From: Hyphomicrobiales bacterium
GTDB taxonomy: Bacteria; Pseudomonadota; Alphaproteobacteria; Rhizobiales; Beijerinckiaceae
Reading direction: 5' to 3'
Assembly: GCA_028290405.1 (NCBI GenBank)
Contig: JAQGJX010000062.1
Span: forward strand, 1 to 40,413
Length of the DNA stretch: 40,413 nucleotides
Numbering within the stretch: position 1 is the first letter of the stretch; every line of letters begins with the position of its first letter. A program made the translations under genes and the position numbers. The notes beneath the pieces were generated by a model. That model had not been told where the DNA came from. It saw nothing but the letters and a program-made list of their open reading frames with translations, and did not search any database. This document shows positions 5,282-25,491 of this stretch, piece after piece.

Positions 5282-5294
5282 AAACGCCCGGCGA

Positions 5295-6314: not shown

Positions 6315-6383
6315 GTTCCCCTCCCCTTTGCGAACCGGCGCGTTGACTGGCCGGTTTCGCTGAAACGTCCGCTCAGGCTGGCG

Positions 6384-7493
6384 TCACAGGTCCAGCCCGT
6401 AGAAAGAGATCGCGTTGCCGCGCAGTATCTTCTGCCGATCCGCCTCCGGCAGCTTCACGTTCAGCGCAAAGCGCGGATCGTCGAAGTCCCAGTGCGGATA
6501 GTCGGTGGCGAACATCAGCCGGTCCACCCCCACCCAGCCGATGAGCTTCTCAAGGTCGCCGGGCCGCTCGGGCTCGTCGATGGGCTGCGTGGTGAACCAG
6601 AGATTGCGGCGTATGTACTCGGACGGCTTCATTTTGAGGTGCGGAACCTCGTCGCGCATCCGCTCGAACGTCTTGTCAAGGCGCCAGGCGAGCGGGGGAA
6701 CCCACGCGCAACCCGGCTCGATGAGCACCACCCGCAGGTTGGGAAAGCGCTCGAACACGCCTTCGATGACGAAGCTCGTCACGAGGGCCTGCATGGATTG
6801 CACGTTCGAGTGATGCTCCTCGAAGTAGTACGACACCCAGCCGGAGCTTGAGACCGCGTGCCCGCCGATGCCGCCGATATGCAGCGCGATGGGCAGGTTG
6901 GCGCGTTCGGCCGCTTCAAAGATCGGCCAGTAGCGCCGGCGCCCGAGCGGCTCGGACGAGCGGGGCGACAGGAGAATTTGCACAAAGCGCGGATCGCCCG
7001 CGCGGCGCTCGATCTCCCGCACGGCGGCGGGCGCGTCCTCATGGGGCACCAGCATGGAGGAGCGCAGGCGCGGCTCGGGATCAAGCCAGGTCGCCGCCAC
7101 CCAATCGTTCAGCGCCGTGCACATGGCGGCGGCGAAGTCGAGGTTTCGCTGCTCGGGCCCGCGCGTGGACAGCGGCACGAGAACGCCCGCCTCCACCCCG
7201 TAGGCGTCCAGATGCTGGCGCTGCATGAACGCGAGGTCCGAACCCGGAGGCGCCCCGCCGGGCGGCCAGGCGTCGTTGCGCGCGATGGCGGCAACCATCC
7301 GCGGATAGCCGATGGTGTCCGAATACATTTCGCGCGAATGGTTGCCGTAGCGGGCCCAATGGTCGCGCCAGCGCTGGGGCAGGAAGGGGACGAGATCCGC
7401 CGGCGAGCGCATGGCCGGGTGTATGTCGCAATCGACGAAGCGGAGCCTTGCGGCTCCATCCCGGACAGCGCGCTGGTCGATGGCGACGTTCAC
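6384..7493 (-). CDS. Amidohydrolase family protein (COG2159, ACMSD-like metal-dependent hydrolase/decarboxylase)
   Basis: The 369-residue TIM-barrel protein belongs to the amidohydrolase-2 family, which includes aminocarboxymuconate-semialdehyde decarboxylase and other aryl or enoate decarboxylases. Metal-site candidates are the D-x-H motif in RFVDCDIHPAM near residue 19, HIGGIGGHAV in the middle of the protein, and the C-terminal FATDYPHWDFDDP. The first motif lacks the HxH pair of true ACMSD, so the precise reaction is open. The start is GTG at 7493 with GGGGAGG upstream; an ATG at 7592 would add 33 residues with no ribosome site. The related gene at 7620 runs divergently, and the orphan binding protein follows downstream. 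Confidence 0.88.
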   Translation of the reverse strand: MNVAIDQRAVRDGAARLRFVDCDIHPAMRSPADLVPFLPQRWRDHWARYGNHSREMYSDTIGYPRMVAAIARNDAWPPGGAPPGSDLAFMQRQHLDAYGVEAGVLVPLSTRGPEQRNLDFAAAMCTALNDWVAATWLDPEPRLRSSMLVPHEDAPAAVREIERRAGDPRFVQILLSPRSSEPLGRRRYWPIFEAAERANLPIALHIGGIGGHAVSSSGWVSYYFEEHHSNVQSMQALVTSFVIEGVFERFPNLRVVLIEPGCAWVPPLAWRLDKTFERMRDEVPHLKMKPSEYIRRNLWFTTQPIDEPERPGDLEKLIGWVGVDRLMFATDYPHWDFDDPRFALNVKLPEADRQKILRGNAISFYGLDL

Positions 7494-7619
7494 GTCACAT
7501 CCTCCCCTTGTTTTCTGACGCTGAATATAGCGCGCGCGCGGGCTTCCACCAAATGCGCGCGAACGCTTGTGCGCCGGCGCCGCGAAAGGCATGATCGCGC
7601 CAAATCAGGGAGGTTTTCT

Positions 7620-8738
7620 TTGACCAGCGAGACGCAGGCGCCCATCATGGCGCGGCCGGGGCTTTACGGCCATCCCACCATCGACTGCGATCTCCACCCG
7701 CCCGCGCCCAGCAACAAGGCGCTTGCGCCCTATCTCAATTCCTACTGGCGCGAGATGCTGACGGTGCGCGGCATCGACAGGCTTCAGCTCAACCCCACCA
7801 GCTACCCGGCGAACGCGCCCCTGACGCGCCGGCCCGACTGGGCGCAACCCGCGCCGGACGTCGCCACGCAGGTCGCGCAACTCACCACGCAGGCGCTTGA
7901 CCCCTTCGGCACGACCTTCGCCATCTGCAACAGCCTGCACGGCGCGCAGCTCTTTCACGGCGAGGACATGGCGGCGGTGTTCTGCGCCGCGCTGAACGAC
8001 TGGATGGCGCGCGAATGGCTGGACCGCGATCCCCGCCTGCGGGCCTCGATCCTGATCCCCTCCGAGAACCCGCAGCTCGCCGTGGCGGAGATCGAGCGCG
8101 TCGCGAAGGACGAGCGGTTCGTCAGCGTGCAGATGCTGTGCATGGGCGAAATGACGCTCGGGCGCCGCTTCTACTGGCCTATCTACGAGGCCGCGCACCG
8201 CAACGGCCTTGCGGTGGCGGTCCATGCGGGCAGCGGCTATCGCCACGCGCCCACCTCCATCGGGTGGCCATCCTATTACATAGAGGAGTACGTGGCGAAC
8301 TCCGCCGCGTTCGAGAACCAGCTGCTCAGCCTCATCGCGGAAGGCGCGCTGTCCAAGTTCCCGGAATTGCGGTTCGTGTTCGCCGAATCCGGCTGGTCCT
8401 GGCTCCCCGCGTTCATGTGGCGCGCAGGCAAGACGTGGCGAGGCGTGCGCGCCGAAGTCCCCTGGGTGGACCGCACCCCGGCGGAGTTCATCCGCCAGCA
8501 CGTGCGCTTCACGCTTCAGCCCGTGGACGCGCCGCCTACGCAGGAGATGCTGCGCGACGTGATCGACCAGCTCGGCTCCGACCGGATGCTGATGTTCTCA
8601 ACCGACTATCCGCACTGGCAATTCGACGGGCTGGACGCCCTGCCCCGCCCCCTCCAGGGCGAAGCCGCGCCGCGGGTGCTCTATGAAAACGCTCTCGAGG
8701 CCTACCCCCGCCTGAAGGCCGCGTTCGCGGCGCTGTAA
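7620..8738 (+). CDS. Amidohydrolase family protein (COG2159), divergent paralogue
   Basis: The 372-residue protein is a second amidohydrolase-2 member, recognisably related to the gene at 6384. Shared landmarks are TIDCDLHPPAPS near residue 21, AALNDWMAREWLDRDPRLRASILIP in the middle, VHAGSGYRHA, and FSTDYPHWQFDGLD near the C-terminus. A TTG start at 7620 is preferred because GGGAGG ends 6 bases upstream; an internal ATG at 7647 is the alternative. The large N-terminal extension possible from 6858 is antisense to the neighbouring gene and was rejected. The two amidohydrolases share a 126-bp divergent intergenic region and are probably co-regulated. The substrate is unknown. Confidence 0.87.
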   Translation: MTSETQAPIMARPGLYGHPTIDCDLHPPAPSNKALAPYLNSYWREMLTVRGIDRLQLNPTSYPANAPLTRRPDWAQPAPDVATQVAQLTTQALDPFGTTFAICNSLHGAQLFHGEDMAAVFCAALNDWMAREWLDRDPRLRASILIPSENPQLAVAEIERVAKDERFVSVQMLCMGEMTLGRRFYWPIYEAAHRNGLAVAVHAGSGYRHAPTSIGWPSYYIEEYVANSAAFENQLLSLIAEGALSKFPELRFVFAESGWSWLPAFMWRAGKTWRGVRAEVPWVDRTPAEFIRQHVRFTLQPVDAPPTQEMLRDVIDQLGSDRMLMFSTDYPHWQFDGLDALPRPLQGEAAPRVLYENALEAYPRLKAAFAAL

Positions 8739-8793
8739 GCGGCGGCGCGTTGGCGAGGCACAAGGCGCCTTGCATTTGTGCAGCGCAATATAA

Positions 8794-8812
8794 GGGGCTG
8801 TGATCCAGCCCC
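8794..8812 (+). terminator. Hairpin downstream of the amidohydrolase gene
   Basis: GGGGCTG and CAGCCCC pair around the loop TGATC, 55 bases after the amidohydrolase stop, followed by ATTTCCCC. The short T-run makes it a weak intrinsic terminator at best. The loop also starts a TGATCC element discussed separately. The remainder of the gene-free stretch 8739-9096 holds GC-rich palindromic sequence and, from about 8990, an AT-richer segment leading to the sigma-54 site; no gene is visible in it. Confidence 0.35.
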
Positions 8813-9026
8813 ATTTCCCCTCGTAACATCGCGTTAACGTCTCGATAAGGCCCGCGCAGCGGCGCCGAAGGCCCGTGCGGGCCGGCTCCAGCGTGCGCGC
8901 GCATGCGCGCATCCTGGCCCGCCGGGGCGCCCGGTTAGGCCCGCCACGGGGCGGCGCGAGCCGCCGACGATGGCCCGCGGCCATGGATTTTACAGCAAAC
9001 GATTGAAATTACTAAAAAACATCCCG

Positions 9027-9044
9027 TTGGCACGGCGGGTGCAT
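9027..9044 (+). promoter_or_regulatory. Sigma-54 (RpoN) -24/-12 promoter of the NitT/TauT-type ABC operon
   Basis: TTGGCACG (9027-9034), a 4-base spacer, then GTGCAT (9039-9044) matches the YTGGCACG-N4-TTGCW consensus at all but one core position, with exact spacing between the GG and GC elements. The start codon of the ATPase gene is about 50 bases downstream. Upstream sequence is AT-rich for this genome. No clear NtrC palindrome was identified. Sigma-54 control would fit nitrogen-limitation expression of an importer-amidase operon. Confidence 0.7.
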
Positions 9045-9096
9045 ATCCCCTGTCGGCTCAAACGAGCGGTCCTCAATCGGGCTTATGGAGACAGGG

Positions 9097-9879
9097 ATGG
9101 CCAACGCGAAACTCGCGCTCAACGACGTGTCCATGGTCTTCAAGACCGACGGGCAGGAGTTCACGGCTCTCGCGCCGCTGGATCTGGAGATCGAGGGCGG
9201 ACGCTTCATTTCCCTCATCGGCCCGTCGGGCTGCGGCAAGAGCACGATCTTCAATATTGTCGCGGGGCTTCAGCCGCCCTCCTCCGGCAAGGTGCTGATC
9301 GACGGCCGCGACGCCACCGGCATGATCGGCCAGGTCGGCTACATGCTGCAGAAGGACCTGCTGCTGCCCTGGCGCACGGTGCTCGACAACGTCGCCCTTG
9401 GCATGGAGATCCGCGGCGTGCCGCTGGCGGAAGGCCGCGAACGCGCCGCGCCCCTGCTCAAGCGATACGGACTTGGCGGGTTTGAGATGCGCTATCCCTC
9501 CTCGCTCTCGGGCGGCATGCGCCAGCGCGCGGCGCTCCTGCGCACGCTGCTCGTCGACAACGACGTGGTGCTGCTGGACGAACCCTTCGGGGCGCTGGAC
9601 GCGCAGACGAAGGCGAGCATGCAGGAATGGCTGCTGCAATTGTTCGGCGACTTCGGCCGCACGGTGATCTTCGTCACCCATGACGTGGAAGAAGCCGTGT
9701 TCCTTTCCGACGAGGTTTACGTGATGGCGAGCCGGCCGGGCCGGGTCATCGACCGCATGCCGGTGGACCTGCCGCGCCCGCGCGACCGCTCGCTGGTCAG
9801 CACGCCGCGCTTCGTCGCCATGAAGAAATATTGCCTCGACCTGCTGCACGGCGCCGCCGCGCCTGCGGAAGCCGCCTGA
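9097..9879 (+). CDS. ABC transporter ATP-binding protein, nitrate/sulfonate/taurine type
   Basis: The 260-residue ATPase energises uptake through the permease encoded next. The Walker A GPSGCGKST is at residues 42-50, a Q-loop region reads MLQKDLLLPWRTVLDN, the signature is LSGGMRQRAALLRTLL, Walker B is VVLLDEPFGALD, and the switch histidine is in VTHDVEEAV. The pattern is typical of the SsuB/TauB/NrtD group. ATG at 9097 has GGAG 6 bases upstream; the ATG at 9085 adds four residues and is possible. It is the first gene of an operon with permease, binding protein and two amidases, under a predicted sigma-54 promoter. Confidence 0.93.
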   Translation: MANAKLALNDVSMVFKTDGQEFTALAPLDLEIEGGRFISLIGPSGCGKSTIFNIVAGLQPPSSGKVLIDGRDATGMIGQVGYMLQKDLLLPWRTVLDNVALGMEIRGVPLAEGRERAAPLLKRYGLGGFEMRYPSSLSGGMRQRAALLRTLLVDNDVVLLDEPFGALDAQTKASMQEWLLQLFGDFGRTVIFVTHDVEEAVFLSDEVYVMASRPGRVIDRMPVDLPRPRDRSLVSTPRFVAMKKYCLDLLHGAAAPAEAA

Positions 9880-9909
9880 GTTCCGGTCCTCCAAAACGGA
9901 AGCCCCACG

Positions 9910-10785
9910 ATGAACACCAAGAGCACCACACTCCCCGGCCGCAGCCTCTGGTCCTTGCCGGGCCTGCGCGCCAAGTCGGGCCCCACCCCCCAGCGCAAGG
10001 TGACGCGCCGCCTGCCGGTGGAGACCATCTGGCCCACCTGGGCGCTGGTGGCCGTGCAGGTCGCGTTCCTCGTCGGCTTCCTGCTGCTGTGGGAAGCGGG
10101 CGCGGCGTTCGGGCTCGTGGACGCCTTCTTCTGGTCGCGTCCCAGCGCCATCTGGGAGACGGGGCTCATCTTCTTCGACTCCGGCGCCGCCTATGTGGAC
10201 ATCGCCTACACGTTCCGCTCCACCCTGATGGGCTTCGTGATCGGCACGTCGGCGGGCGCGCTGCTGGGCATGTCGTTCTGGTGGTCGCGCAATTACGCCG
10301 CGATCATGCAGCCCTACATCATCTGCCTTGAATCGATCCCCAAGCTGGCCCTGGCGCCGCTCATCATCCTGGTGTTCGGCATGGGGCTGTCCTCGAAGGT
10401 CGCCATCGCCACCGCGCTGACGCTCATCGTCTCCACCCTCACGGCCTATTCGGGCGTGCAGGCGGTCGATAAGGACCAGGAGCGCCTCTTCTACTCGCTG
10501 GGCGCGAGCCGCTGGCAGGTGTTCACCAAGCTGGTGGCCCCCTCGTGCGTGCCGTGGATCATCTCGATCCTGCGCGTGAACATCGGCCTGGCGCTGACAG
10601 GCTCCATCGTGGGCGAGTTCGTGGCCTCCCAGCATGGCCTCGGCCGCACCATCCTCTACGCAGGATCAACTTACGAAATCTCGCTCGTCTGGGTCGCGGT
10701 CTTCGTGCTCTCGGCCCTGTCGATGCTGATGTACGTCGCCGTCGCATGGCTCGAAAAGGTCCTGCGCAAGGGCGTCGTCCGCTGA
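9910..10785 (+). CDS. ABC transporter permease, nitrate/sulfonate/taurine type
   Basis: The 291-residue inner-membrane protein has about six membrane helices. The first (WALVAVQVAFLVGFLLLWEAGAAF) follows a basic, proline-rich N-terminal tail of about 45 residues, longer than usual. The EAA loop that contacts the ATPase reads YSLGASRWQVFTKLVAPSCVPWI near residues 195-215. It follows the ATPase gene by 30 bases and precedes the binding protein by 43. The substrate is set by the binding protein and is inferred from the downstream amidases to be a nitrogen-containing amide or ureido compound. Confidence 0.93.
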   Translation: MNTKSTTLPGRSLWSLPGLRAKSGPTPQRKVTRRLPVETIWPTWALVAVQVAFLVGFLLLWEAGAAFGLVDAFFWSRPSAIWETGLIFFDSGAAYVDIAYTFRSTLMGFVIGTSAGALLGMSFWWSRNYAAIMQPYIICLESIPKLALAPLIILVFGMGLSSKVAIATALTLIVSTLTAYSGVQAVDKDQERLFYSLGASRWQVFTKLVAPSCVPWIISILRVNIGLALTGSIVGEFVASQHGLGRTILYAGSTYEISLVWVAVFVLSALSMLMYVAVAWLEKVLRKGVVR

Positions 10786-10828
10786 ACCGCACTCTCCCGT
10801 GAACGCTTTCCAGCCAAGGAGCTTCAAC

Positions 10829-11833
10829 ATGAACGCCATCAGCCGACGTCTTGCCCTCAGCCTCGTCCTCATGGGCGGCGTCGCCTCCGGGGCGCTGGCG
10901 CAGGAGCGCAAGACGCTCATCGTCGCCGAGCCCACGCACGGCACGGGCTACCTTCCCCTCTACGTCGCTATCCAGAAGGGCTTCTTCGACGCCGAGAAAC
11001 TCGACGTGAAGATCCTCACGGTGGAAAGCGGGTCCGGCCACACCAACGCGGTGCTCACCGGCCAGGCCTTCGCGTTCATCGGCGGGCCCGAGCACAACGC
11101 CTTCGCGAAGGTGAAGGGCGGCGAGTTGCGGGGCGTCGTCAACGTCGTGGATCGCGGCAACGTCTACTTCGTCGCCAAGAAAGGCATGGAGCCCAAGCCG
11201 GGCGAGAGCATCGCGTCCTACATGAAGGGCAAGACGATCGCGACCGGGCTCTACAGCGGCACGCCCAACTCGATCACCCGCTATCTCGCGTCCAAGTGGG
11301 GCCTCGATCCCAAATCCACTGTGACCCTGAAGGAAATGACCAACGGCGCCATCCTGGCCGCCGTGAAGGCGGGCGGCGCGGAGGTCGGCGTCACCACCGA
11401 GCCGCTGCTGACGCGCGGCGTGGTCGAAGGGATCTGGAGCGAGCCGATCTTCAACGTGCCGAAGGAGCTTGGCCCCTACGCGTATTCGACGCTCAACATC
11501 CGCGCCGCGTCCATCAAGAACGAGCCGGAAACCGTCGCGGCCTTCGTGCGCGGCGTCGTCAAGGGGCTGAAGTACACGGACGCGAACCGTGAAGAAGCCG
11601 CCGCCGTGGCCAAGAAGGAGTTCCCCACCATGGCGCTGGACGACCTGAAGGCGACGCTGGACCGCTCGTTCGCCGATTCCATGTGGAGCAAGGACGGCAT
11701 GATCTCGGCGGACTCCTGGAAGACCGGCGAGTCCGTTGTTCTAGAGGCCGGCATTCTCAAGAAGCCCGTGCCGTACGACGACATCATCGACATGCAGTTC
11801 GTCCGCTCGACGCTCGCGTCGCTGAAGAACTGA
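10829..11833 (+). CDS. ABC transporter substrate-binding protein, SsuA/THI5-like (NMT1 family)
   Basis: The 334-residue protein starts with a Sec-type signal peptide (residues 1 to about 24, ending GALA-QE). The mature part opens with the family's typical TLIVAEPTHGTGYLPLYVAIQKGFFDAEKLDVKI block, in which the ligand lies between two lobes. Homologues bind sulfonates, nitrate, thiamine precursors or aromatic acids; the ligand here is not determinable. ATG at 10829 has AAGGAG at 10816-10821, and the upstream ATG at 10799 is not supported. It is the third gene of the operon. Two stable hairpins follow before the amidase genes and probably let this gene be expressed above its neighbours. Confidence 0.92.
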   Translation: MNAISRRLALSLVLMGGVASGALAQERKTLIVAEPTHGTGYLPLYVAIQKGFFDAEKLDVKILTVESGSGHTNAVLTGQAFAFIGGPEHNAFAKVKGGELRGVVNVVDRGNVYFVAKKGMEPKPGESIASYMKGKTIATGLYSGTPNSITRYLASKWGLDPKSTVTLKEMTNGAILAAVKAGGAEVGVTTEPLLTRGVVEGIWSEPIFNVPKELGPYAYSTLNIRAASIKNEPETVAAFVRGVVKGLKYTDANREEAAAVAKKEFPTMALDDLKATLDRSFADSMWSKDGMISADSWKTGESVVLEAGILKKPVPYDDIIDMQFVRSTLASLKN

Positions 11834-16006: not shown

Positions 16007-17146
16007 TCAACCCCGGCAGAGGCCGAGCGCCTGTTGCAGCAACGCGCCTTCGATCAGCCCGTCGAGCAGGTCGAAATGGTTTGCGCCCTTCACGATCAGC
16101 GGACCGGGCGCGCCCCACAGGCGCGCGAGGTCGGCCGACTGCCGCTTGAACTCGTCGCTCTCCTTGCCGCCGACCGCCAGCGCCACGCGGGCGCCGTTGC
16201 GTGGGGCGAGCTTCACCGGCGAGAGGCGCGCCGCGTCGTTGGGCGACTGAAGCCCCAGGATGCGTCCCATGGGCAGATGCAGGAGCGGCTCAAGATCGAG
16301 CACGCCCGACAGCAGATGGGCGGACCTGACGGGCGGCGCGTGGGGATCGCACGCCATGCAGGCCGCCAGATGCCCGCCCGCAGAATGGCCAGCCACATGC
16401 ATCTGCGACGCGTCGACGCCGAGGTTGTCCGCCTCGCGCACGAGGAACGACAGCGCGGCGCGAGTGTGCTCGACGATGCGCGCCAGCGGCGTCTCGGGCG
16501 CGAGCCCGTAGTCGATGTTCGCGACCGCGAAGCCCGCCTTCAGCATCCCGGAACAGAACTGCGCGTGCTGGTCCTTGGACGAAGCCTGCCAGTAGCCGCC
16601 GTGGATGAACACCCAGACGGGCGGGCGCGCGACGCCCACGGGGCGGTAGAGGTCCAGCGTCTGCTCGCGTTCTGGGCCATAGGCGATGTCCAGCCCGGCG
16701 TGCTGCGCGCGGGCGGCGGCGCCGTCGCTGGTCCATTTCGCAAAGACCGCGCCCATGTCGGCGACCTGCCCGCGCGGGCTCATCTGACGGGCGACCTCCG
16801 CGACGTCGTAGCCCCGGTACACGGGGGCGGAGGGCGGCGGGGACGCGGGCGGCTCGGCGCGCGCGTGGACGCTCACGGAATCCCCTGGCGCGTAGCGCAC
16901 GCTGATCTGCGGGCGAAAGCCCCCGAAGGCCTCGCACCAGACGCGGCGGATCTCGGGCCGGGCCGGATGCAGCGCGCCGGGATCGTCGCCCGAGAAGGTC
17001 ACGGAAACGAGGTGCGGCGGGGCGGCGCCGGCGGCGACGAGCTTGCGGAACACCTGCGCGAGCGCATGGGCCAGCGCCGGCGCCCCCTGCCCCCGGGCTG
17101 AAGCCTCGACGTCCACGAGCGTGCGATCAGAGACCGACCCAGCCAT
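16007..17146 (-). CDS. Arylformamidase (kynurenine formamidase)-like alpha/beta hydrolase with N-terminal RidA-like domain
   Basis: Residues about 120-379 are an alpha/beta hydrolase. The oxyanion motif HGGYWQASSKD (182-192) closely resembles that of animal-type kynurenine formamidases. The nucleophile elbow is GHSAGGHLA with S255, the histidine is H357 in KGANHFDLLD, and an acidic residue is likely near 329-331. The family hydrolyses N-formyl groups of kynurenine-like arylamines. Residues 1-100 are not part of that fold. They resemble the core of a RidA/YjgF domain but without its conserved arginine. ATG at 17146 overlaps the end of livF by 20 bases, so it is the last gene of the ten-gene operon and is translationally linked. 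The encoded 3-hydroxyanthranilate dioxygenase supports an aminoaromatic substrate. Confidence 0.82.
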   Translation of the reverse strand: MAGSVSDRTLVDVEASARGQGAPALAHALAQVFRKLVAAGAAPPHLVSVTFSGDDPGALHPARPEIRRVWCEAFGGFRPQISVRYAPGDSVSVHARAEPPASPPPSAPVYRGYDVAEVARQMSPRGQVADMGAVFAKWTSDGAAARAQHAGLDIAYGPEREQTLDLYRPVGVARPPVWVFIHGGYWQASSKDQHAQFCSGMLKAGFAVANIDYGLAPETPLARIVEHTRAALSFLVREADNLGVDASQMHVAGHSAGGHLAACMACDPHAPPVRSAHLLSGVLDLEPLLHLPMGRILGLQSPNDAARLSPVKLAPRNGARVALAVGGKESDEFKRQSADLARLWGAPGPLIVKGANHFDLLDGLIEGALLQQALGLCRG

Positions 17147-17828
17147 TCACCTTCTCCCGATCGCGGTCCAGCGCGTCGCCGTCGCCGCTCCACACCGTAC
17201 GGCCTTTTTCGATCACATGATGCCTGTCCGCAAGGCGGCGAAGCGCCGTCACGGTCTTGTCGATCACCAGAATGGACTGCCCGCCGCGCTTGAGCGCCTC
17301 AAGGCACGTCCAGATTTCCGCCCGGATCACCGGCGCGAGCCCCTCGGTGGCCTCGTCCAGAATGAGCAGGCGCGGGTTCGTCATCAGCGCGCGGCCGATG
17401 GCGAGCATCTGCTGCTCGCCCCCTGACAGGGTGCGCGCCCATTGGGCCTGCCGCTCGCCGAGACGCGGAAACAGCGCCACCACCCGGTCGAGGGTCCATG
17501 GATCCGGACGGCCGAAGCGGTCCGCCGCCGTGGCGATGAGGTTTTCGCGCACCGTGAGAGTGGGGAAAATCTGCCGCCCCTCCGGCACGAGGCCGACGCC
17601 GAGCTTCGCCACCGTCTCGGGGGCGGCGCCGGTGATGTCGCGCCCGTCGAACGTGACCCGTCCGCCGCGCGCGGGCAACAGGCCCATGATGGCGCGGATC
17701 GTCGTGGTCTTGCCCATGCCGTTGCGGCCCATGAGGGTGACGAACTCGCCCTCCCCCACCTCGAGCGACAGGTCGAACAGGATCTGGCTGCGCCCGTAAG
17801 CGGCTTCGAGGTTCTCAACACGCAGCAT
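17127..17828 (-). CDS. livF: Branched-chain-amino-acid-type ABC transporter ATP-binding protein LivF
   Basis: The 233-residue ATPase has Walker A GRNGMGKTT (34-42), signature LSGGEQQMLAIGRAL near 133, Walker B LLILDEATEGLAP, and the LivF-typical VVALFPRLGERQAQW region. With LivG it forms the ATPase pair of a HAAT-family importer. Its ATG shares a base with the livG stop (TGATG). The final codons overlap the hydrolase gene. These transporters often carry aromatic acids in soil proteobacteria; the neighbouring genes suggest an aromatic or aminoaromatic ligand. Confidence 0.93.
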   Translation of the reverse strand: MLRVENLEAAYGRSQILFDLSLEVGEGEFVTLMGRNGMGKTTTIRAIMGLLPARGGRVTFDGRDITGAAPETVAKLGVGLVPEGRQIFPTLTVRENLIATAADRFGRPDPWTLDRVVALFPRLGERQAQWARTLSGGEQQMLAIGRALMTNPRLLILDEATEGLAPVIRAEIWTCLEALKRGGQSILVIDKTVTALRRLADRHHVIEKGRTVWSGDGDALDRDREKVNGWVGL

Positions 17829-18580
17829 CAGGCGTCACCCTCGCCCAGATAAGCGAGCTTCACCTGCGGGTCCGCCTGGATTTCAGCAGGCGCGCCGGAG
17901 GCCACGACGCGGCCGTAGACGAGCACGGAAATGCGGTCCGCGAGCGCGAACACCGCGTCCATGTCGTGCTCCACCAGCAGCATGGCGACGTCGCCCTTCA
18001 TGCGCTTGAGCGCCTCGACCATCTGGCGGCTTTCCGACGCCCCGAGGCCCGCCATGGGCTCGTCCAGCAGCAGCAGGCGGGGCTTCGTGGCCAGCGCGAT
18101 GGCCAGTTCAAGCTGCTTGTGCTCGCCGTGGGACAGCTCCGCCGCCAGCGTGTGCGCCCGCCCGGCCAGCCCGGCGGCCGCCAGGCAATCGAGGGCGGGC
18201 GCGCGCAGGCTCCTGTCTTTCGACGCGTCCGCCAGGAAGCGGAAGGAATGGCCCTGGCCGGCCTGCACGGCCAGCGCCACATTGTCGAGGGCCGTCTCCT
18301 CCAGCAGCAGTTCGATGATCTGGAAGGTGCGCGCGAGTCCGCGCTTCACGCGCGCGGGCGTCGAGAGGGCGCGTATGTCCGTCCCGCCGAAATGGATGGC
18401 GCCGGAATCGGGCGCGATCTCGCCCATGAGCTGGCCGATGAACGTCGTCTTGCCCGCGCCGTTGGGGCCGATGAGGGCGTGCACCTCGCCGGGGCGCACG
18501 TCCAGCGACAGGTCGTCGGTGGCGCTGACGCCGCCGAAGCGCTTGAACAGGCGCTGCACGCGCAGCAGGGGCTCGCTCAT
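17828..18580 (-). CDS. livG: Branched-chain-amino-acid-type ABC transporter ATP-binding protein LivG
   Basis: The 250-residue ATPase has Walker A GPNGAGKTT at 38-46, signature LSHGEHKQLELAIAL, Walker B LLLLDEPMAGLGASE, and switch histidine in LVEHDMDAVFALADRISVL, all LivG hallmarks. The start is ATG at 18580, overlapping the livM stop as ATGA. A longer in-frame extension lies in the livM gene and was rejected. It works with LivF, LivM, LivH and the LivK-type binding protein. Confidence 0.93.
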   Translation of the reverse strand: MSEPLLRVQRLFKRFGGVSATDDLSLDVRPGEVHALIGPNGAGKTTFIGQLMGEIAPDSGAIHFGGTDIRALSTPARVKRGLARTFQIIELLLEETALDNVALAVQAGQGHSFRFLADASKDRSLRAPALDCLAAAGLAGRAHTLAAELSHGEHKQLELAIALATKPRLLLLDEPMAGLGASESRQMVEALKRMKGDVAMLLVEHDMDAVFALADRISVLVYGRVVASGAPAEIQADPQVKLAYLGEGDA

Positions 18581-19593
18581 CTGCCGCCTCCTCGCAGCAG
18601 GCCAAGCAGGCCTGAGAGGCCGCCGCGCGTGAAGAGGATCATCAGCACCAGCAGAGGGCCGAGGATGACCTGCCAGTGCTCCGTCCATGCGGCGAGCTGC
18701 GTTTCCAGCCCGATCAGCACCGCCGCGCCCAGCGCGGGGCCCAGCAGCGTGCCGGCGCCGCCGAGAATGACCATGATCATGAACTCGCCCGATTGCGTCC
18801 AGTGCAGCATGTCCGGGCTGACGAAGCGCGCGTGGTTGGCCATGAGCGCGCCCGCAAGCCCCGCGCCCATGCCGGAAATGACGAAGGCCGCAAGCTTGTA
18901 GCGATAGGTCGGCACGCCGATGGCCGCCATGCGCCGTTCGCTCTGGCGCACGCCCGCCAGGACCTTGCCGAAACGGGAGCGCACCACGCGCCCCATGAAG
19001 GCGAACCACGCCACGGCGAAGAACAGCGACACCCAGTAGAACGTCGCGGAGTCGCGCGTGTCCACGAACGGCAGCGCGTTGCGGCGGCGCACGATCAGGC
19101 CGTCGTCTCCCCCATAGGCTTTCAGGGCGACGAAGAAGAAAAAGATCATCTGCGCGAACGCCAGCGTGATCATGATGAACTGCACGCCGCTGGTGCGCAG
19201 CGACAGGGCCCCGAAGCCCGCCGCGAACAGGCCGCTGACGAGGATCGCGGCGGGCAGCGTTATCAGCAACTGGTCCGTGCCCAGCGGCAGGCCGAACAGA
19301 AGATCGCCGGTGACGAAGTGCCGGTAAAGGACGCCGACCACGTAGGCGCCGACGCCGTACCAGGCGGCGTGCCCGAAGCTGATGAGGCCGCCGTATCCCA
19401 GCGCGAGATTGAGGCTCGCGGCCGCGATGGCGAGGATCACGATGCGCGTCGCCAGCGACACCAGCGCGGGCTGGCCGGCGAGGCTGGCGAGATAGGGCAA
19501 CACCACGAGCCCCACCAGCAGCAGCGCGACGAGCAGCCTGCGCCTGACGCTGGACAGCAGGGGCCTGGCGGGTTTGTTCGACGGATCAGCCAT
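18577..19593 (-). CDS. livM: Branched-chain-amino-acid-type ABC transporter permease LivM
   Basis: The 338-residue permease has eight or more membrane helices. The family motif NLALGYGGLISFGHAAWYGVGAY is near residues 62-84 and SERRMAAIGVPTYRYKLAAFVISGMGAGLAG near 217-247. The polar N-terminal tail before the first helix is normal for LivM. The start overlaps the end of livH by 8 bases. It forms the membrane channel with LivH. Confidence 0.93.
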   Translation of the reverse strand: MADPSNKPARPLLSSVRRRLLVALLLVGLVVLPYLASLAGQPALVSLATRIVILAIAAASLNLALGYGGLISFGHAAWYGVGAYVVGVLYRHFVTGDLLFGLPLGTDQLLITLPAAILVSGLFAAGFGALSLRTSGVQFIMITLAFAQMIFFFFVALKAYGGDDGLIVRRRNALPFVDTRDSATFYWVSLFFAVAWFAFMGRVVRSRFGKVLAGVRQSERRMAAIGVPTYRYKLAAFVISGMGAGLAGALMANHARFVSPDMLHWTQSGEFMIMVILGGAGTLLGPALGAAVLIGLETQLAAWTEHWQVILGPLLVLMILFTRGGLSGLLGLLRGGGR

Positions 19594-20503
19594 GGGCGGG
19601 CAACAGGCCCTTCGGCCGAATGAGTAGCACGATGGCCATGAGCATGTAGACGCCCATTGCGGAGAGGCCCGAGGCCAGCGCGTCCGCCTCCGAGCCGCTG
19701 CTCATGAGCTGGCGCAGGAGACCGGGAAGCACGGCGCGCAGCAGCGTGTCCACCACGCCGACCACCAGCGCGCCCACGAAGGCGCCCCGAATGGAGCCGA
19801 CGCCGCCGATGACCACGACCACGAAGGTGAGAATGAGCACCTGCTCGCCCATGCCCACCTGCACGGACAGGATAGGCCCGGCCATCACGCCCGCCAGTCC
19901 CGCCAGCATGGCGCCCACGCCGAACAGGACCGTGTAGAGCAGGCGGATATCGACGCCCAGCGCGCGCACCATGTCGCGGTTCGTGGCGCCCGCGCGAATG
20001 AGCATGCCGAGCCGCGTGCGGGCGATGAGCACGTAGAGCGCTATCGCGGTCGCAAGGCCCACGGCTATGATGGCGAGCCGGTAGACGGGATAGCGCAGCC
20101 CTTCCACGATGGGCACGGAGCCGTTCAGGAACGGCGGAATCTCGACGAACAGAGGCTGGCGGCCGAAAAGGATCGTGGTGAGCTGGTTGAAGAACAGGAT
20201 GAGCCCGAAGGTGGCCAGCACCTGGTCGAGATGGTCGCGCGCATAGAGCCGCCGCACCACGAGATATTCCATCGACATGCCGGCGAGCGCCGCGGCCGCA
20301 AGCCCGGCGGGCGCCGCGAGCAGGAACGAACCCGTCTTGGCCGCCACCGCCGCCGTCGCGTAGGCGCCGATCATGTAAAGCGACCCCTGCGCGAGATTGA
20401 TCACGCCCATGATGCCGAAGATCAGCGTCAGGCCTGCGGCGAGCAGGAACAGCATGAAGCCGAGCTGCACGCCGTTGAGGGCCTGTTCAATGAGAAGGGG
20501 CAT
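19586..20503 (-). CDS. livH: Branched-chain-amino-acid-type ABC transporter permease LivH
   Basis: The 305-residue permease starts with the typical LLIEQALNGVQLGFMLFLLAAGLTLIFGIMGVINLAQGSLYMIGAY block and has about eight helices, plus the conserved RAGATNRDMVRALGVDIRLLYTVLFGVGAMLAGLAGVMAGP loop. A 202-base gap containing a palindromic repeat separates it from the livK gene upstream, the largest gap in this leftward run. Transcription may continue through it or restart here. Confidence 0.93.
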   Translation of the reverse strand: MPLLIEQALNGVQLGFMLFLLAAGLTLIFGIMGVINLAQGSLYMIGAYATAAVAAKTGSFLLAAPAGLAAAALAGMSMEYLVVRRLYARDHLDQVLATFGLILFFNQLTTILFGRQPLFVEIPPFLNGSVPIVEGLRYPVYRLAIIAVGLATAIALYVLIARTRLGMLIRAGATNRDMVRALGVDIRLLYTVLFGVGAMLAGLAGVMAGPILSVQVGMGEQVLILTFVVVVIGGVGSIRGAFVGALVVGVVDTLLRAVLPGLLRQLMSSGSEADALASGLSAMGVYMLMAIVLLIRPKGLLPAHG

Positions 20504-20549
20504 TCACAAAACCTGAGGGCGGACGGATGTATCTTGAGCCCCGAGAGGC

Positions 20550-20650
20550 TCCACTTTCCCGGGGCCGCGTCGCGGAACCCGGGACCCAGAGCAGCGAGGT
20601 TCGCGCATGGGCCCCTGGGTCCCGGATCGCTCCGCGTCCGGGAAAGTGGA
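20550..20650. repeat. Palindromic intergenic repeat (REP-like), complete copy
   Basis: Two arms, 20550-20589 and 20615-20650, are imperfect inverted copies. Each outer end is TCCACTTTCCCGG or its complement, and each inner end is GGGACCCAG or its complement, around a 25-base loop. A half copy with the same right arm and similar flank lies at 24596-24631. It could fold strongly in the livK-livH mRNA and set the ratio of binding protein to permease. Confidence 0.75.
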
Positions 20651-20705
20651 TCGGCTTGCCGGCATCGCGCCTGAAACCCTCGCCGCAAGCGCGTGCGTGA
20701 GGAGC

Positions 20706-21875
20706 CTAGAGCTTGCAATCCTTGGCGTAGAAGTCGCCATGGTTCTCAAGCACCTTCCCCTTGGTGACGAGCGCGAGCTGGCCGTCCGCGCCCTTTTCGA
20801 CCTTCAGGGCGAACCAGTCGTGGACCGGGTGCTGGTTGGGGCCGAACTTGAAGTTGCCGCGCACGGACTGGAAGTCGGCCTTGGCCATCGCCTTGCTGAA
20901 CGCCGCCACGTCGTCCACCTTGCCGCCGGTCGCCTTGAGGGCGGCTGCGATGGAGAGCGCCGTGTCGTAGCCCTGGCTGGCGTAATAGGTCGGCAGGCGG
21001 TTGTACTTCTTCTGGAACTCGGCCACGAACTTCTTGTTGGCCGCGTTGTCGAAGTCGCTGTTCCAGTGGCTGGAGACGTTGACGCCCGCAGCGGCGTCGC
21101 CGACCGCCTTCAGGATGACGCTGTCGAGCGAGGGAGACGCCACCACCATGGGGGTCTTCTCCAGCAGGCCCGCCTGCGCATACTGGCGCATGAAGGCGAT
21201 GCCGAGCCCGCCCGGATGGAACTGGAACACCACGTCGGGATTGGCGGCGCGAATCTGCGCCATTTCAGCGGCGAAGTCAGTCTGGTCGAGGCGCGTGTAG
21301 ATTTCGCCCGCGACGTCGCCCTTGAACATGCGCTTGAAGCCCGCGATGGCGTCCTTGCCGGCCTGATAGTTCGGCGCGAGCACGAAGGCCTTCTTGTAGC
21401 CGAGGTTCCTGGCGTTCTGCCCGGCGCTCTCGTGCAGCGTGTCGTTCTGCCACGACACGACGAAGTAGTTCTTGTGGCATTCCTTGCCGGCGAAGTTGGA
21501 CGGCCCCGCGTTCGGGCTGACGTACACGCCGTCGTTGTCGAGAATGTCCGGCACCACCGCGCCCGCGACGTTGGAGAAGATGATGCCCGTGAGGAGCTTG
21601 ATCTTCTCGGTCTTCATGAAGCGTTCGGCGATTTCCTTGCCCTGGCCGGGCTTCAGGGCGTCGTCCTCCACGATCACCTGCACAGGCGCGCCGCCGAGCT
21701 TGCCGCCTTCGAGCTCCACCGCGAGGTTGAACGCGTCGCGCACGTCCTGGCCCAGGTAACCGCCGGGTCCCGACAGCGTCGTGATCATGCCGATCTTCAC
21801 CGGCGCCTGCGCGAACGCAGGGCTCGCCATGAACAGCGCAAGCGCCGCGGCCGAAATGCTCCCCTTCAACGACAT
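20706..21875 (-). CDS. Branched-chain-amino-acid-type ABC transporter substrate-binding protein (LivK-like)
   Basis: The 389-residue periplasmic protein has a Sec signal peptide (MSLKGSISAAALALFMASPAFA-QA) and then the type-I binding fold opening PVKIGMITTLSGPGGYLGQDVRDAFNLAVE. Other landmarks are YVSPNAGPSNFAGKECHKNYFVVSWQND and YASQGYDTALSIAAAL. ATG at 21875 has GGAGAAAC upstream, and the longer frame to 21986 overlaps no conserved sequence. It supplies ligand to LivHMGF. It is 56 bases downstream of the 3-hydroxyanthranilate dioxygenase gene, so its ligand may be the pathway substrate. Confidence 0.92.
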   Translation of the reverse strand: MSLKGSISAAALALFMASPAFAQAPVKIGMITTLSGPGGYLGQDVRDAFNLAVELEGGKLGGAPVQVIVEDDALKPGQGKEIAERFMKTEKIKLLTGIIFSNVAGAVVPDILDNDGVYVSPNAGPSNFAGKECHKNYFVVSWQNDTLHESAGQNARNLGYKKAFVLAPNYQAGKDAIAGFKRMFKGDVAGEIYTRLDQTDFAAEMAQIRAANPDVVFQFHPGGLGIAFMRQYAQAGLLEKTPMVVASPSLDSVILKAVGDAAAGVNVSSHWNSDFDNAANKKFVAEFQKKYNRLPTYYASQGYDTALSIAAALKATGGKVDDVAAFSKAMAKADFQSVRGNFKFGPNQHPVHDWFALKVEKGADGQLALVTKGKVLENHGDFYAKDCKL

Positions 21876-21931
21876 CACGTTTCTCCAGTTGATCTCAAAA
21901 ACCCGTGCGGCACAGCGCCGAACGACAATCG

Positions 21932-23472
<1,541 letters not shown>

Positions 23473-23578
23473 CGCGATCGCCTCCGCTCAAGTCCGCATT
23501 GCGCCCGGGTTTTGCGCCCGCGTCAACACCAGCCTTATAGCGCAGCCTTGCGGGAGACGGAAACGATCAGGGCCGCGC

Positions 23579-24679
23579 TCAGCGCCCCCGCGCGTCCTTG
23601 GCCTTCTCGAGCAGGTCGGGCGGGGTGGACATGATGTCGTCCAGAATGGCCTTCAGCCGCTCCGGCCCCAGCGGACGCACGTCGATGGAGGCTTTGCGGG
23701 CCTCGTCGAGGAACGCGGGATCGCGCATGGTCGCCGCGAAGGCGGCCTGGAGCGCGGCGAGCCGGTCCGCGGGCACGTCGGGCGTCGTCAGATACGAGCG
23801 CCCCATGGCGATCTCGCCGGAGAAGAGGCGCAGGATGCGGGCCGCCTCCTCATTGGGGGCGAGTTCGTGCAGCAGCGGCACGTTGGGAAAGTCCGGGTCC
23901 CGCTCGGCGCCGATCTGCACGAGGATGTCGATCTTGCCGTCGCGGAGCCAGTCGGCGTTGCCGGACTTCAGGCTGGAGAAGAAATTCCCCGCCCTGCCCT
24001 GCACCTCGCCGCGCTCCATGGCGAGGTGGATTTCGTTCGTGCTCTTGTAGCCCGCGACGTTCTTGAACTTCGTGCCCAGCAGGTTGTTCATCAGCGTGGG
24101 GAACAGCACCGTGTAGGAGCCCGCGCCCGTGGCGCCCATCAGCACCTCCTTGCGCTTGGCGTCCTCCACGGTCTTCACCCCCGCCGTGCTCCAGACGTAA
24201 AGGTTCATGTTGTCGACGTCGCTGGCCCCCAGCCAGTTGAAGCGGCGCGAATCGTACTGCGCGCCCTTTCCGTCGATGATCTGGTAGAGCGCGAACGAGG
24301 GCAGGATCGCGCCGATGTGCGTGCCGTCCCGCGGCGCCTGGTTGTACATGAAGTTGGTGGCCTGGAGATGCCCCGCCCCCGTCATGTTGCGCGGCACCAC
24401 GGAGGGCTTGCCGGGAACGTGGGCGCCCAGGTGACGCGCCACGAGGCGCGCATTGGCGTCGAGCCCGCCGCCGACGCCTGTGCTGATGATGAGGTTGAGC
24501 GACTTGCCGGCGTAGAAGTCCGAGACGGAATCGGCGGCGCCGGGCGTGGCGATGGCCAGCGCCGTGAGCGCCGCGACCGCTGTGAGAGCGCGGCTCTGGA
24601 TCCCGGATCGCTTCGCGTCCGGGAAAGTGGATGGGTCTGTCAGCATCGAACTTGAAGTCTTTGCGGGAGCCATGGTCAT
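23579..24679 (-). CDS. Tripartite tricarboxylate transporter (TctC/Bug family) substrate-binding protein, orphan
   Basis: The 366-residue periplasmic protein has the Bug-family opening DFYAGKSLNLIISTGVGGGLDANARLVARHL and the RNMTGAGHLQATNFMYNQAPRDG ligand loop. No TctA or TctB genes are nearby. The signal peptide is odd: the hydrophobic core (ALTAVAALTALAIATPGAADS) is preceded by about 33 residues, partly encoded by a half palindromic repeat (24596-24631), giving STFPDAKRSGIQ. Starts at 24679, 24673 and 24646 are all possible; 24679 is 8 bases after the VOC stop. It is the second gene of the operon and probably binds a carboxylate related to the pathway. Confidence 0.87.
   Translation of the reverse strand: MTMAPAKTSSSMLTDPSTFPDAKRSGIQSRALTAVAALTALAIATPGAADSVSDFYAGKSLNLIISTGVGGGLDANARLVARHLGAHVPGKPSVVPRNMTGAGHLQATNFMYNQAPRDGTHIGAILPSFALYQIIDGKGAQYDSRRFNWLGASDVDNMNLYVWSTAGVKTVEDAKRKEVLMGATGAGSYTVLFPTLMNNLLGTKFKNVAGYKSTNEIHLAMERGEVQGRAGNFFSSLKSGNADWLRDGKIDILVQIGAERDPDFPNVPLLHELAPNEEAARILRLFSGEIAMGRSYLTTPDVPADRLAALQAAFAATMRDPAFLDEARKASIDVRPLGPERLKAILDDIMSTPPDLLEKAKDARGR
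24596..24631. repeat. Half copy of the palindromic repeat inside the tctC signal-peptide coding region
   Basis: This segment matches the right arm at 20615-20650 (TCCCGGATCGC, then CGCGTCCGGGAAAGTGGAT), and similarity weakly continues about 40 bases further. Read on the minus strand it stays in frame and contributes part of the TctC N-region. The left arm is missing. Confidence 0.72.
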
Positions 24680-24687
24680 GGCCGGCC

Positions 24688-25491
24688 TCAGCGCTCGTTC
24701 ACGTCGATGTAGACGCCTTCGAGGTCCGTCAGGTGGAACTCGCCGATGGGGCATTGCTTGAACACGCTGAGCCGCGCCTCGCCTTCCTCGCCGATGCCCA
24801 GGGGCTTGGTCACCATCTGCGGGTTGTAGCCGATGAGTTCGATCATCTCCTTCTTGATCGCCTCGACGCTCTCCACCTTGAAGCCGAAATGATCGAGCGC
24901 CGGGGGCTGCGGGTCGTGGCCGATGAAATTGTTCATGGTCCACGGCATGAGCACCATCATGACGCGCCCGTCCGAGAGGCGGTAATTGCCGTCCGAGCGG
25001 TCGTTCTGGAGCGCCAGCTCGAACACCGTGGAGTAGAACTCCGCGCTGCGCTCGGGATTACGCACGCGCAGCACGATGTGGTTGATGTAGCGCTGGGGCA
25101 GTTCGCCGCTGTTTTCAGCGAAAATGTCCTGCGCCTTGCCGGAATTGCGCTCGGCGAGGTCGAAGATGATCATGTCGGCGTCATGGGCGCTGTAGGCGGC
25201 GTTGGGCCGCACCGAGGGGCGCTTCACCGCGGTCAGCGTGGAGTCGAACTTCGCCATGCGCTCCAGCGCAAGCTGGATGCTGTCCACTTCCAGCCCGAAA
25301 TGGTCGAGGCCGCTGCGGCGCCCGTCGCGGCGCGGAATGTTGTTGAGGCCGATCTGGCCGTCGCCCACCGGGGCGGCGCGCGCGGGGCGCTGGTTGTTGG
25401 ACGCCTTCATGCCGAACAGCGCCTGATAGAAGCGCGCGTTGACGGCGTAATAATCGGTCGAGATCGCGAGATGGTTGATCCGGGCGAACAC
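24688..25491 (-). CDS. VOC-superfamily protein with two glyoxalase/extradiol-dioxygenase-like domains
   Basis: The 267-residue protein has two vicinal-oxygen-chelate repeats (about 1-125 and 133-267). In the second, the metal-ligand positions of type I extradiol dioxygenases are H138 (INHIVL), H201 (LDHFGF) and an acidic D264 (VYIDVNE) in place of the usual glutamate. The first repeat has matching H7 and H64. It may be a ring-cleavage dioxygenase, a lyase or an isomerase. The start is GTG at 25491 with GGGAGG upstream. It is the first gene of the ten-gene leftward operon. Confidence 0.85.
   Translation of the reverse strand: MFARINHLAISTDYYAVNARFYQALFGMKASNNQRPARAAPVGDGQIGLNNIPRRDGRRSGLDHFGLEVDSIQLALERMAKFDSTLTAVKRPSVRPNAAYSAHDADMIIFDLAERNSGKAQDIFAENSGELPQRYINHIVLRVRNPERSAEFYSTVFELALQNDRSDGNYRLSDGRVMMVLMPWTMNNFIGHDPQPPALDHFGFKVESVEAIKKEMIELIGYNPQMVTKPLGIGEEGEARLSVFKQCPIGEFHLTDLEGVYIDVNER

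Follow-up and report, generated by a model that had tools for sequence, protein, structure and literature searches.

How is 3-hydroxyanthranilate (3HAA) degraded by bacteria that carry 3-hydroxyanthranilate 3,4-dioxygenase (HAO) and lack the decarboxylase ACMSD? The question is raised by an operon of a Hyphomicrobiales bacterium, located in a stretch of 40,413 nucleotides, hereafter the window. The HAO product, 2-amino-3-carboxymuconate semialdehyde (ACMS), is described in PMC10143591 as a branch point, from which cyclisation leads to quinolinate, a neuroactive NAD precursor, or decarboxylation proceeds via ACMSD. With regard to the meta-cleavage of 2-nitrobenzoate and 3HAA, nba/onb clusters comprise HAO, ACMSD, AMSDH, 2-aminomuconate deaminase and OnbGHIJ, the classical steps being those outlined in PMC5817917.

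Gene organisation and the two central enzymes

ORF calling placed ten consecutive ORFs on the minus strand, each backed by a Pfam profile (Table 1), in agreement with the ten-gene operon proposed in the first-pass annotation. The VOC protein and two transport systems listed there are indeed encoded, and the Liv import system is supported, but VOC and TctC homologues are found in only 3 and 6 of 90 DapA-like loci (thresholds of 150 and 200 bits, respectively) and therefore probably represent lineage-specific add-ons. The start of the TctC gene is uncertain, since a dispersed repeat (24602-24631) lies in its 5' part.

Table 1. Genes of the operon, in minus-strand order.
Product	Coordinates	Strand	Basis or remark
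VOC (glyoxalase-fold) protein, two-domain, first gene	24688..25491	-	Pfam PF00903, two stretches
TctC-type solute-binding protein	23579..24679	-	PF03401, 27.5 vs cut-off 27 bits (marginal)
DapA-family class I aldolase-like enzyme	22495..23472	-	putative hydratase/retro-aldolase on HAO product
3-hydroxyanthranilate 3,4-dioxygenase (HAO)	21932..22498	-	TIGR03037, 258.8 bits; alignment to 1YFU
LivK-type periplasmic binding protein	20706..21875	-	PF13458; homologue in 32/90 DapA-like loci
LivH-type permease	19586..20503	-	PF02653
LivM-type permease	18577..19593	-	PF02653
LivG-type ATPase	17828..18580	-	PF00005 and PF12399, matched on a slightly longer frame (17828-18595)
LivF-type ATPase	17127..17828	-	PF00005
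Two-domain protein: RidA-like N-terminus (residues ~1-105) and arylformamidase-like alpha/beta hydrolase C-terminus (alpha/beta hydrolase gene)	16007..17146	-	PF20434/PF07859

HAO scores above both NCBIfam equivalog cut-offs (NF009763, 269.9 against 220 bits; TIGR03037, 258.8 against 145.95 bits). In a gap-free alignment with 1YFU, R47, H51, E57, H95, R99, E110 and both CxxC pairs are identical; we take H51, E57 and H95 to be iron ligands, R47, R99 and E110 to be substrate residues, and the CxxC pairs to form the second metal site. The conservation of iron, substrate and rubredoxin-site residues noted earlier is thus complete, and the protein is predicted to be a genuine HAO of the NbaC type. 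Its ATG (22498-22496) overlaps the stop codon of the DapA-like gene (22497-22495) in an ATGA sequence, which upholds the coupling of the two genes claimed in the first-pass annotation.

The DapA-like protein displays the fold of 4-hydroxy-tetrahydrodipicolinate synthase (DHDPS, DapA) and its Schiff-base lysine: K177 aligns with the lysine of the family and occurs in every orthologue compared (88 of 88). In contrast to DHDPS, GTTGE is replaced by GKQGE (K59 and Q60 in 88/88 orthologues), YNVP by WSHP, with W150 at the position of the catalytic Tyr (again 88/88), and H123/F124 stand where TPYYNKP has YY. Judging from the alignment, the DHDPS catalytic triad, presumably Thr44/Tyr107/Tyr133 (E. 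coli numbering), is not retained, both triad tyrosines being replaced, and the score remains far under the DHDPS equivalog cut-off (TIGR00674, 90 against 206.15 bits). These features support a non-canonical DapA-family enzyme that has lost the DHDPS catalytic residues. Its orthologues form a tight, HAO-associated family.

Mutual exclusion of the DapA-like gene and ACMSD

Among 101 relatives of the window genome, HAO scored over the cut-off in 43, of which 42 possess a DapA-like orthologue; none of the matches listed (down to about E 1e-16) came from the other 58. In 398 genomes sampled across the phylum, HAO was present in 26 and an orthologue (E<=1e-60) in 10, all ten within these 26. ACMSD, defined by at least 37% identity and at least 220 bits with the best candidates per genome scored, was found in nine of the 26 and in none of the 10. 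Among the relatives, only G073 carries it, and this is also the only HAO genome without the DapA-like gene. The pooled 68 HAO genomes comprise 51 with the DapA-like gene, 10 with ACMSD, 7 with neither and none with both (Fisher p 6.7e-8, a statistic that ignores kinship). Relatives of the window genome are over-represented in the sample and provide 42 of the 51 DapA-like genomes. The genomes counted are related to one another, and some of the orthologues are fragments at contig edges.

Weaker amidohydrolase matches (28-32%) occur at E<=1e-40 in two DapA-like genomes (G022 and G043). The window genome yielded no ACMSD at E<=1e-40 among the best 5 and the best 21 of 31 candidates scored, and the absence of a canonical ACMSD reported in the first reading stands. 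When 30 of its 33 amidohydrolase-2 matches were compared with ACMSD, the best by score was 31% identical, and one partial match reached 34.5% over 171 residues. Likewise, no ACMSD was detected in 94 DapA-type loci (best match 32%). HAO itself was not seen in the stretches examined for 15 of the 90 DapA-like loci.

The G073 locus (L227) contains RidA, HAO (71%), ACMSD (62%), LivK/H/M/G (57-64%) and the hydrolase (45%), and is the same gene setting with the decarboxylase in place of the DapA-like gene. Its HAO nests within the DapA-type HAO clade in both HAO trees. Since only one of two nested swaps persists in the second tree, we hold very slightly less firmly than we otherwise would that the DapA-like enzyme substitutes for ACMSD at the ACMS node. 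We nevertheless regard this role, which the first-pass annotation had not recognised, as highly probable.

An assignment of the operon to NAD or to quinolinate/picolinate formation, the DapA-like enzyme promoting ring closure in the manner of the DHDPS dihydropyridine, appears very improbable. DapA does perform the heterocycle-forming step of lysine synthesis, and six of the seven HAO genomes with neither gene carry kynureninase in the stretch and hence look NAD-synthetic; however, the DHDPS catalytic residues are lost, and a catabolic function is indicated by the importers, the LysR neighbours and, in relatives, the genes for AspDH and aldehyde oxidation.

A possible retro-aldol route and its gene neighbourhood

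NahE and PhdJ, DapA-superfamily enzymes of naphthalene and phenanthrene degradation, add water and then catalyse a retro-aldol cleavage to an alpha-keto acid and an aldehyde, NahE via a Schiff-base lysine. The chemistry that we propose for the DapA-like enzyme is of the same type, with the Schiff-base lysine in common; the substrate, in contrast, would bear an additional carboxylate and an amino group, and Trp occupies the catalytic Tyr position. No hydratase-aldolase is known to us whose substrate carries a carboxylate at C3, and we consider such retro-aldol chemistry an evenly balanced proposition.

With about equal chances of being right or wrong, the operon could be viewed as an import and degradation unit for 3HAA in an ACMSD-less branch, for which we infer the following substrates, products and step order. 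The Liv system would import 3HAA or an N-acyl/N-formyl form, from which the arylformamidase-like domain would release free 3HAA, and HAO would open the ring to yield ACMS. In many relatives, the aldehyde would then be oxidised by an aldehyde dehydrogenase (ALDH) or a molybdenum aldehyde oxidase. The DapA-like enzyme, replacing both ACMSD and 2-aminomuconate deaminase, would form a Schiff base at C2, add water at C4 and cut between C3 and C4, giving oxaloacetate/iminosuccinate (C4) and malonate semialdehyde/malondialdehyde (C3), such that all seven carbons would be recovered in the two products and no CO2 released. Nitrogen may be retained as aspartate via aspartate dehydrogenase (AspDH) in relatives, or, in the window, the imine/enamine may undergo hydrolysis, for which the RidA-like part of the fusion protein is a possible catalyst.

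This route would share with the nba/onb pathway the ring-cleavage enzyme, presumably the ACMS intermediate and, in some loci, adjacent importers. However, genes of the classical lower pathway are hardly ever found near the DapA-like gene: the 94 DapA-type loci lack ACMSD and any FAA-family hydratase/decarboxylase (0/94, against 2 of 17 HAO loci that have no DapA-like gene), and a RidA deaminase homologue is found in a single one (L240), against 10 of the 17. They harbour instead the DapA-like enzyme and, in some cases, AspDH and a different ALDH or a molybdenum oxidase; in single queries, AspDH was found in 26 and the molybdenum subunit in 29 of the 94 loci, both being absent from the 17 others. 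Two divergent RidA-like ORFs were noticed in L081/L083.

AspDH is the enzyme that an iminosuccinate/oxaloacetate product would require; among the 90 DapA-like loci, it was seen in only 25. The molybdenum subunit or an ALDH is present in 40 of these loci, both together in one, and neither in 50, including 21 of the 56 loci of at least 18 kb. The window operon contains no ALDH, molybdenum oxidase or AspDH, the only AspDH of this genome being in a different cluster. AspDH and the fused RidA-like domain (25 and 14 of 90 loci) coincide in one locus and are not significantly exclusive (Fisher p 0.10); Chelatococcus has both.

Alternatively, the DapA-like enzyme might be an unrelated replacement for ACMSD, decarboxylating ACMS via a Schiff base, which is conceivable because ACMS is a beta-imino acid; the remainder of the pathway would be classical, with its genes elsewhere. 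The exclusion of the two genes and the L227 swap are in keeping with this scheme, as is KdgD, a member of the superfamily that couples decarboxylation and dehydration and appears among the weak NCBIfam matches of the protein. Also in its favour, G097 possesses the DapA-like gene and, on another contig (L240), an HAO beside the RidA homologue (69%), resembling an ACMSD cluster. Nevertheless, we judge it unlikely, given the near absence of RidA deaminase and FAA-family genes from the loci examined, the lack of any role for AspDH, and the low identity (31-41%) of the ALDHs of DapA-type loci to that of an ACMSD cluster.

The fused hydrolase and the origin of the substrate

The window hydrolase harbours the HGGYWQ and GHSAGG motifs, and H182-W186 (HGG(Y)W), the nucleophile S255 and H357 are invariant across 18 rows, H357 being kept in at least 90% of a 24-row alignment. 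Together with a fold match to the kynurenine formamidase 4e15 (E 1.5e-17), this agrees with the arylformamidase-like character assigned beforehand; by sequence, however, the nearest PDB entries are those of Lipase 1 (9n8r) and a putative thioesterase (2pbl) rather than of the formamidase. The earlier annotation had overlooked an additional N-terminal domain of about 105 residues, with a beta-alpha-beta-alpha-beta-beta arrangement in the model of the protein (pLDDT 94.2). By sequence, its relationship to RidA is weak: comparison with a profile of 12 RidA-type proteins gave 70.6% and E 3.9e-5 in hhalign, and the window domain had no Pfam match at E<=1, the L068 domain reaching E 0.14. R78, invariant in 14 rows, aligns to a near-invariant Arg of RidA, which we assume to be the active-site residue of the R105 type. 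The fusion recurs in 14 of 90 related loci.

The HGGYW oxyanion motif, Ser and His are shared with kynurenine formamidases and N-acylanthranilate amidohydrolases; unlike kynurenine formamidase, the window protein carries a RidA-like fusion and is located with HAO. We propose that it may act as an N-acyl/N-formyl-3-hydroxyanthranilate amidohydrolase. In four of the 90 related loci (L064, L065, L088 and L234), the hydrolase adjoins a homologue of 1H-3-hydroxy-4-oxoquinoline 2,4-dioxygenase, an enzyme that produces N-formylanthranilate and CO. The L088 copy has 3ibt as best PDB match (E 1e-78), and the three others are 72-95% identical to it; the gene is absent from the window operon.

These loci lend some support to the suggestion, made in the initial annotation, of a route for a formylated aminohydroxybenzoate. 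The same annotation correctly stated that kynureninase is lacking, as no match was found in the window genome (99.65% complete), but its wording "not for tryptophan" is too strong in general, because kynureninase lies in the cluster at 3 of 90 loci (L099, L101 and L231, the latter two near-identical there).

HAO could also use another aminophenol acid, for instance a substituted 3-hydroxyanthranilate, the product of which would be cleaved by the DapA-like enzyme. Transport and hydrolase genes do differ between loci, and the neighbouring quinolone-type dioxygenase fits such a substrate. Against this, HAO retains all 3HAA-site residues, the ACMSD-type HAO of L227 nests in the same clade, and the three clusters with kynureninase have a source of 3HAA or anthranilate, which makes this explanation quite improbable.

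Taken at its broadest, the proposal is that of a widespread, undescribed and decarboxylation-free 3HAA route, in which the aldehyde is oxidised, a DapA-family hydratase/retro-aldolase splits the C7 product and nitrogen can be kept as aspartate; we put it forward tentatively, at slightly under even chances. To our knowledge, it would add a new reaction to those of the DapA superfamily. A third enzymatic exit from ACMS, if true, would change the reading of HAO genes in genomes: 51 of the 68 sampled HAO genomes carry the DapA-like gene, the usual partner of HAO among the sampled relatives (42/43), and would otherwise resemble incomplete kynurenine or nitrobenzoate pathways. Many bacteria appear to degrade 3HAA with an aldolase-like enzyme where the known bacterial pathway has a decarboxylase, the window cluster being one example.

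Architecture of the window operon and its dioxygenase

The window belongs to genome G000 (4.07 Mb in 223 contigs, 99.65% complete), of which it is contig C128. The ten-gene operon announced by the first-pass annotation is borne out, all ten genes being read from one strand in the order listed in the table. The translational coupling proposed for the DapA-like gene, which codes for a class I aldolase-like enzyme, and that of 3-hydroxyanthranilate 3,4-dioxygenase (HAO) is in keeping with an ATGA common to both genes. Judging from the coordinates, LivH/LivM, LivM/LivG, LivG/LivF and LivF/hydrolase each overlap by 1 to 20 bases. The operon carries no aldehyde-oxidising gene and no aspartate dehydrogenase (AspDH) gene. 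HAO scores above both HAO equivalog cut-offs and is the single HAO match of the genome; its iron, substrate and rubredoxin-site residues, described as intact, are indeed all kept in a gap-free alignment with 1YFU over residues 14-179.

The 30-base dispersed repeat TCCACTTTCCCGGACGCGNAGCGATCCGGG occurs twice in the window and, allowing up to two mismatches, 20 times in the genome (control, 0); the 5' portion of the TctC frame contains one window copy, and the LivK-LivH interval contains the other. The amidohydrolase-2 family (PF04909), represented in the second cluster of the window, has 33 matches in G000.

Positions of the features in the window and in two other loci
Feature	Contig or locus	Position	Strand	Content
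Ten-gene operon	C128	16007-25491	minus	VOC, TctC, DapA-like, HAO, LivK, LivH, LivM, LivG, LivF, hydrolase
Dispersed repeat, first copy	C128	20621-20650
Dispersed repeat, second copy	C128	24602-24631
Second catabolic-looking cluster	C128	5295-14600		Solute-binding protein, two amidohydrolase-2 proteins, NMT1-type ABC importer, two isochorismatase-family hydrolases, LysR regulator
356-residue ORF beside the operon	C128	14709-15779		No Pfam match at E<=0.001
Two adjoining genes	C128	29742-33429		POR, DUF6537 and TPP domains; similar to an indolepyruvate:ferredoxin oxidoreductase
Catabolic-looking cluster with AspDH	C118 (L247)	about 5265-11441		Neighbours read by eye: TPP enzyme, SDR, cupin, Rieske-like oxygenase, RidA-like
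Divergent HAO	L068	225 onward	minus	42% identity

The DapA-like gene, HAO and ACMSD across genomes

The search of named genomes for the DapA-like protein returned 76 loci, with full-length matches 57-91% identical and two outgroup loci at 31-34%. The closest named matches are MAGs labelled Beijerinckiaceae, Rhizobium sp. Q54 and Hyphomicrobiales, and publicly annotated examples are found in Chelatococcus (pCO-6), Shinella, Paroceanicella, Phaeobacter (pGal_C110) and Agrobacterium pusense (pR76). Once the outgroup (L092, L093) and three fragments (L094, L096, L097) had been left out, the set comprised 90 loci, namely, 71 named contigs, five plasmid stretches and 14 further genome stretches; two short loci (L030, L091) were omitted before the 88-row count. 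These loci are not independent, as they include related genomes and two near copies (L101 and L231), and the ORF caller behind the gene orders is a simple one, which takes some antisense frames as well and called no genes in L058, where the GC3 filter removed the ORFs.

HAO is present in 75 of the 90 loci, and in 51 it lies directly downstream of the DapA-like gene on the same strand. Part of the 15 loci without HAO are contig ends or have HAO beyond the stretch; in L101, it is cut at the stretch edge. VOC (3/90) and TctC (6/90), at the beginning of the operon, are not conserved. Co-occurrence at the genome level is a cleaner test than at the locus level. Among 101 relatives, a DapA-like orthologue occurs in 42 (incomplete in five: short contig-edge fragments in G037, G017 and G006, partial in G028 and G042), all of which possess HAO, out of 43 with HAO in total; among 398 genomes of the phylum, all 10 with the orthologue carry HAO, which is found in 26. 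The DapA-like gene is the defining gene of the system.

ACMSD, the decarboxylase of the classical pathway, was searched for in the same two samples and called at no less than 37% identity and 220 bits. Nine phylum genomes have it; each of these possesses HAO, and the DapA-like gene is absent from all nine. Among the relatives, ACMSD was found in one, G073, the sole HAO genome of that sample lacking the DapA-like gene. With the two samples merged and each genome counted once, the 68 HAO genomes divide into 51 with the DapA-like gene, 10 with ACMSD, seven with neither and none with both (Fisher p 6.7e-8, kinship ignored); for six of the seven, kynureninase lies in the stretch. Weaker amidohydrolase matches (28-35%, <185 bits, E<=1e-40) in three more phylum-sample genomes and nine relatives, two of these genomes (G022 and G043) carrying the DapA-like gene, were not scored as ACMSD. 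Among HAO genomes, the DapA-like gene occupies the place of ACMSD.

Two HAO trees were built, leaving out loci without HAO and HAO pieces of <140 residues. L240, the HAO locus of G097, was labelled by locus in the first tree and relabelled in the second, from which the long rows L068 and L226 were left out and whose deep branches are weak. L227, the HAO locus of G073, stands among DapA-type HAOs in both. A second ACMSD-type row, L211, is placed among them in the first tree but moves to the clade edge in the second, where L227 is the sole nested row (67 DapA, 1 ACMSD); two nested swaps were therefore reduced to one. Starred branches force 3 label changes for DapA in the first tree and 2 in the second; for ACMSD, they force 5 in each. 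L227 combines a free RidA and ACMSD with the retained HAO, LivKHMG and short hydrolase. Since closely similar HAOs pair with either partner, as the nesting of L227 indicates, the DapA-like enzyme and ACMSD likely act on the same product. The very divergent HAO of L068, whose gene is close to a DapA-like/Liv/hydrolase cluster of otherwise standard make-up, forms the second-longest end branch of the first tree.

Companion genes and the hydrolase

Within the 90 loci, AspDH is found in 25, LivK in 32, kynureninase in 3 and the hydrolase in 32, with a RidA-like fusion in 14. A xanthine-dehydrogenase-type Mo subunit, typically ending at the start of the DapA-like gene, occurs in 25 and an SSADH-like aldehyde dehydrogenase (ALDH) in 16; one locus has both and 50 have neither, as do 21 of the 56 loci of at least 18 kb. 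The ALDHs are only 31-41% identical to that of an ACMSD cluster. The 17 HAO loci that lack the DapA-like gene hold RidA homologues (10), ACMSD (8, within the stretch) and FAA hydrolases (2), but no AspDH and no Mo subunit. G097 is a counter-example, having the DapA-like gene and, on another contig, HAO beside a RidA homologue. That the DapA-like enzyme is merely a decarboxylase in ACMSD's stead would account for their mutual exclusion, but leaves unexplained both AspDH and the near absence of deaminase and FAA genes from the DapA-type loci, and we consider it unlikely.

The idea that the RidA-like domain strictly stands in for AspDH was discarded as a rule: avoidance is not significant with the 14 true fusions (Fisher p 0.10), and p reaches 0.035 if the RidA-like matches of L081 and L083, which are separate ORFs, are counted as fusions. 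Chelatococcus (L098) carries both, and 50 of the 90 loci neither. In L081 and L083 (Limnohabitans and a relative), an ORF separates the DapA-like gene from HAO; that of L081, read by eye, has FAD-binding (CoxM-like) and CoxG-like regions, which suggests a fuller Mo-oxidase around the DapA-like gene. The single AspDH match of G000 lies in a cluster other than the window operon, and because of its setting (see the table), we do not assign it to this pathway.

The C-terminal domain of the hydrolase is similar to the kynurenine formamidase 4e15 (E 1.5e-17 in Foldseek), but lipase-like chains score higher. The N-terminal 105 residues are modelled with high confidence as a beta-alpha-beta-alpha-beta-beta fold. 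They have no Pfam match in the window protein and a weak one to PF01042 in L068; profile-profile comparison with RidA-type proteins gives 70.6% (E 3.9e-5), and the invariant R78 aligns with the conserved RidA arginine. From these comparisons, the domain is tentatively called RidA-like. With the whole hydrolase model as the query, the best 50 Foldseek matches are hydrolases only.

In four loci (L064, L065, L088, L234), the short hydrolase adjoins a flavin monooxygenase and a homologue of 3-hydroxy-4-oxoquinoline 2,4-dioxygenase; in PDB comparisons of the L088 copies, the monooxygenase best matches MHPCO. Because the product of this dioxygenase class is N-formyl- or N-acylanthranilate, the earlier proposal of a formylated aminobenzoate gains some support for one possible feeder compound; the window operon itself has neither gene.

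Proposed chemistry

ACMS, the ring-opened product of HAO, or its acid would present a carboxylate at C1, an amine at C2, a carboxylate at C3 and a C4=C5 double bond. We infer a hydration/retro-aldol route, in which the DapA-like enzyme would form a Schiff base at C2, water would add at C4 and C3-C4 would undergo retro-aldol cleavage, splitting C7 into C4 and C3. NahE-type reactions likewise proceed through a Schiff base, hydration and retro-aldol cleavage; the proposed substrate differs in having one more carboxylate. NahE and PhdJ fall outside the best 60 PDB matches of the DapA-like profile and the 50 VIA-align entries listed, which is neutral either way. The open PMC full-text matches listed, a scope exclusive of subscription journals and preprints, contain no description of a DapA-family enzyme or AspDH in 3-hydroxyanthranilate degradation.

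The C3 product would be malonate semialdehyde if the aldehyde is oxidised beforehand, and malondialdehyde otherwise. G000 possesses a methylmalonate-semialdehyde dehydrogenase (668 bits, cut-off 448.5) that could accept malonate semialdehyde, a purely permissive observation. The C4 product would be oxaloacetate or iminosuccinate, the aspartate dehydrogenase substrate, and this would give a role to AspDH, otherwise unexpected in these loci.
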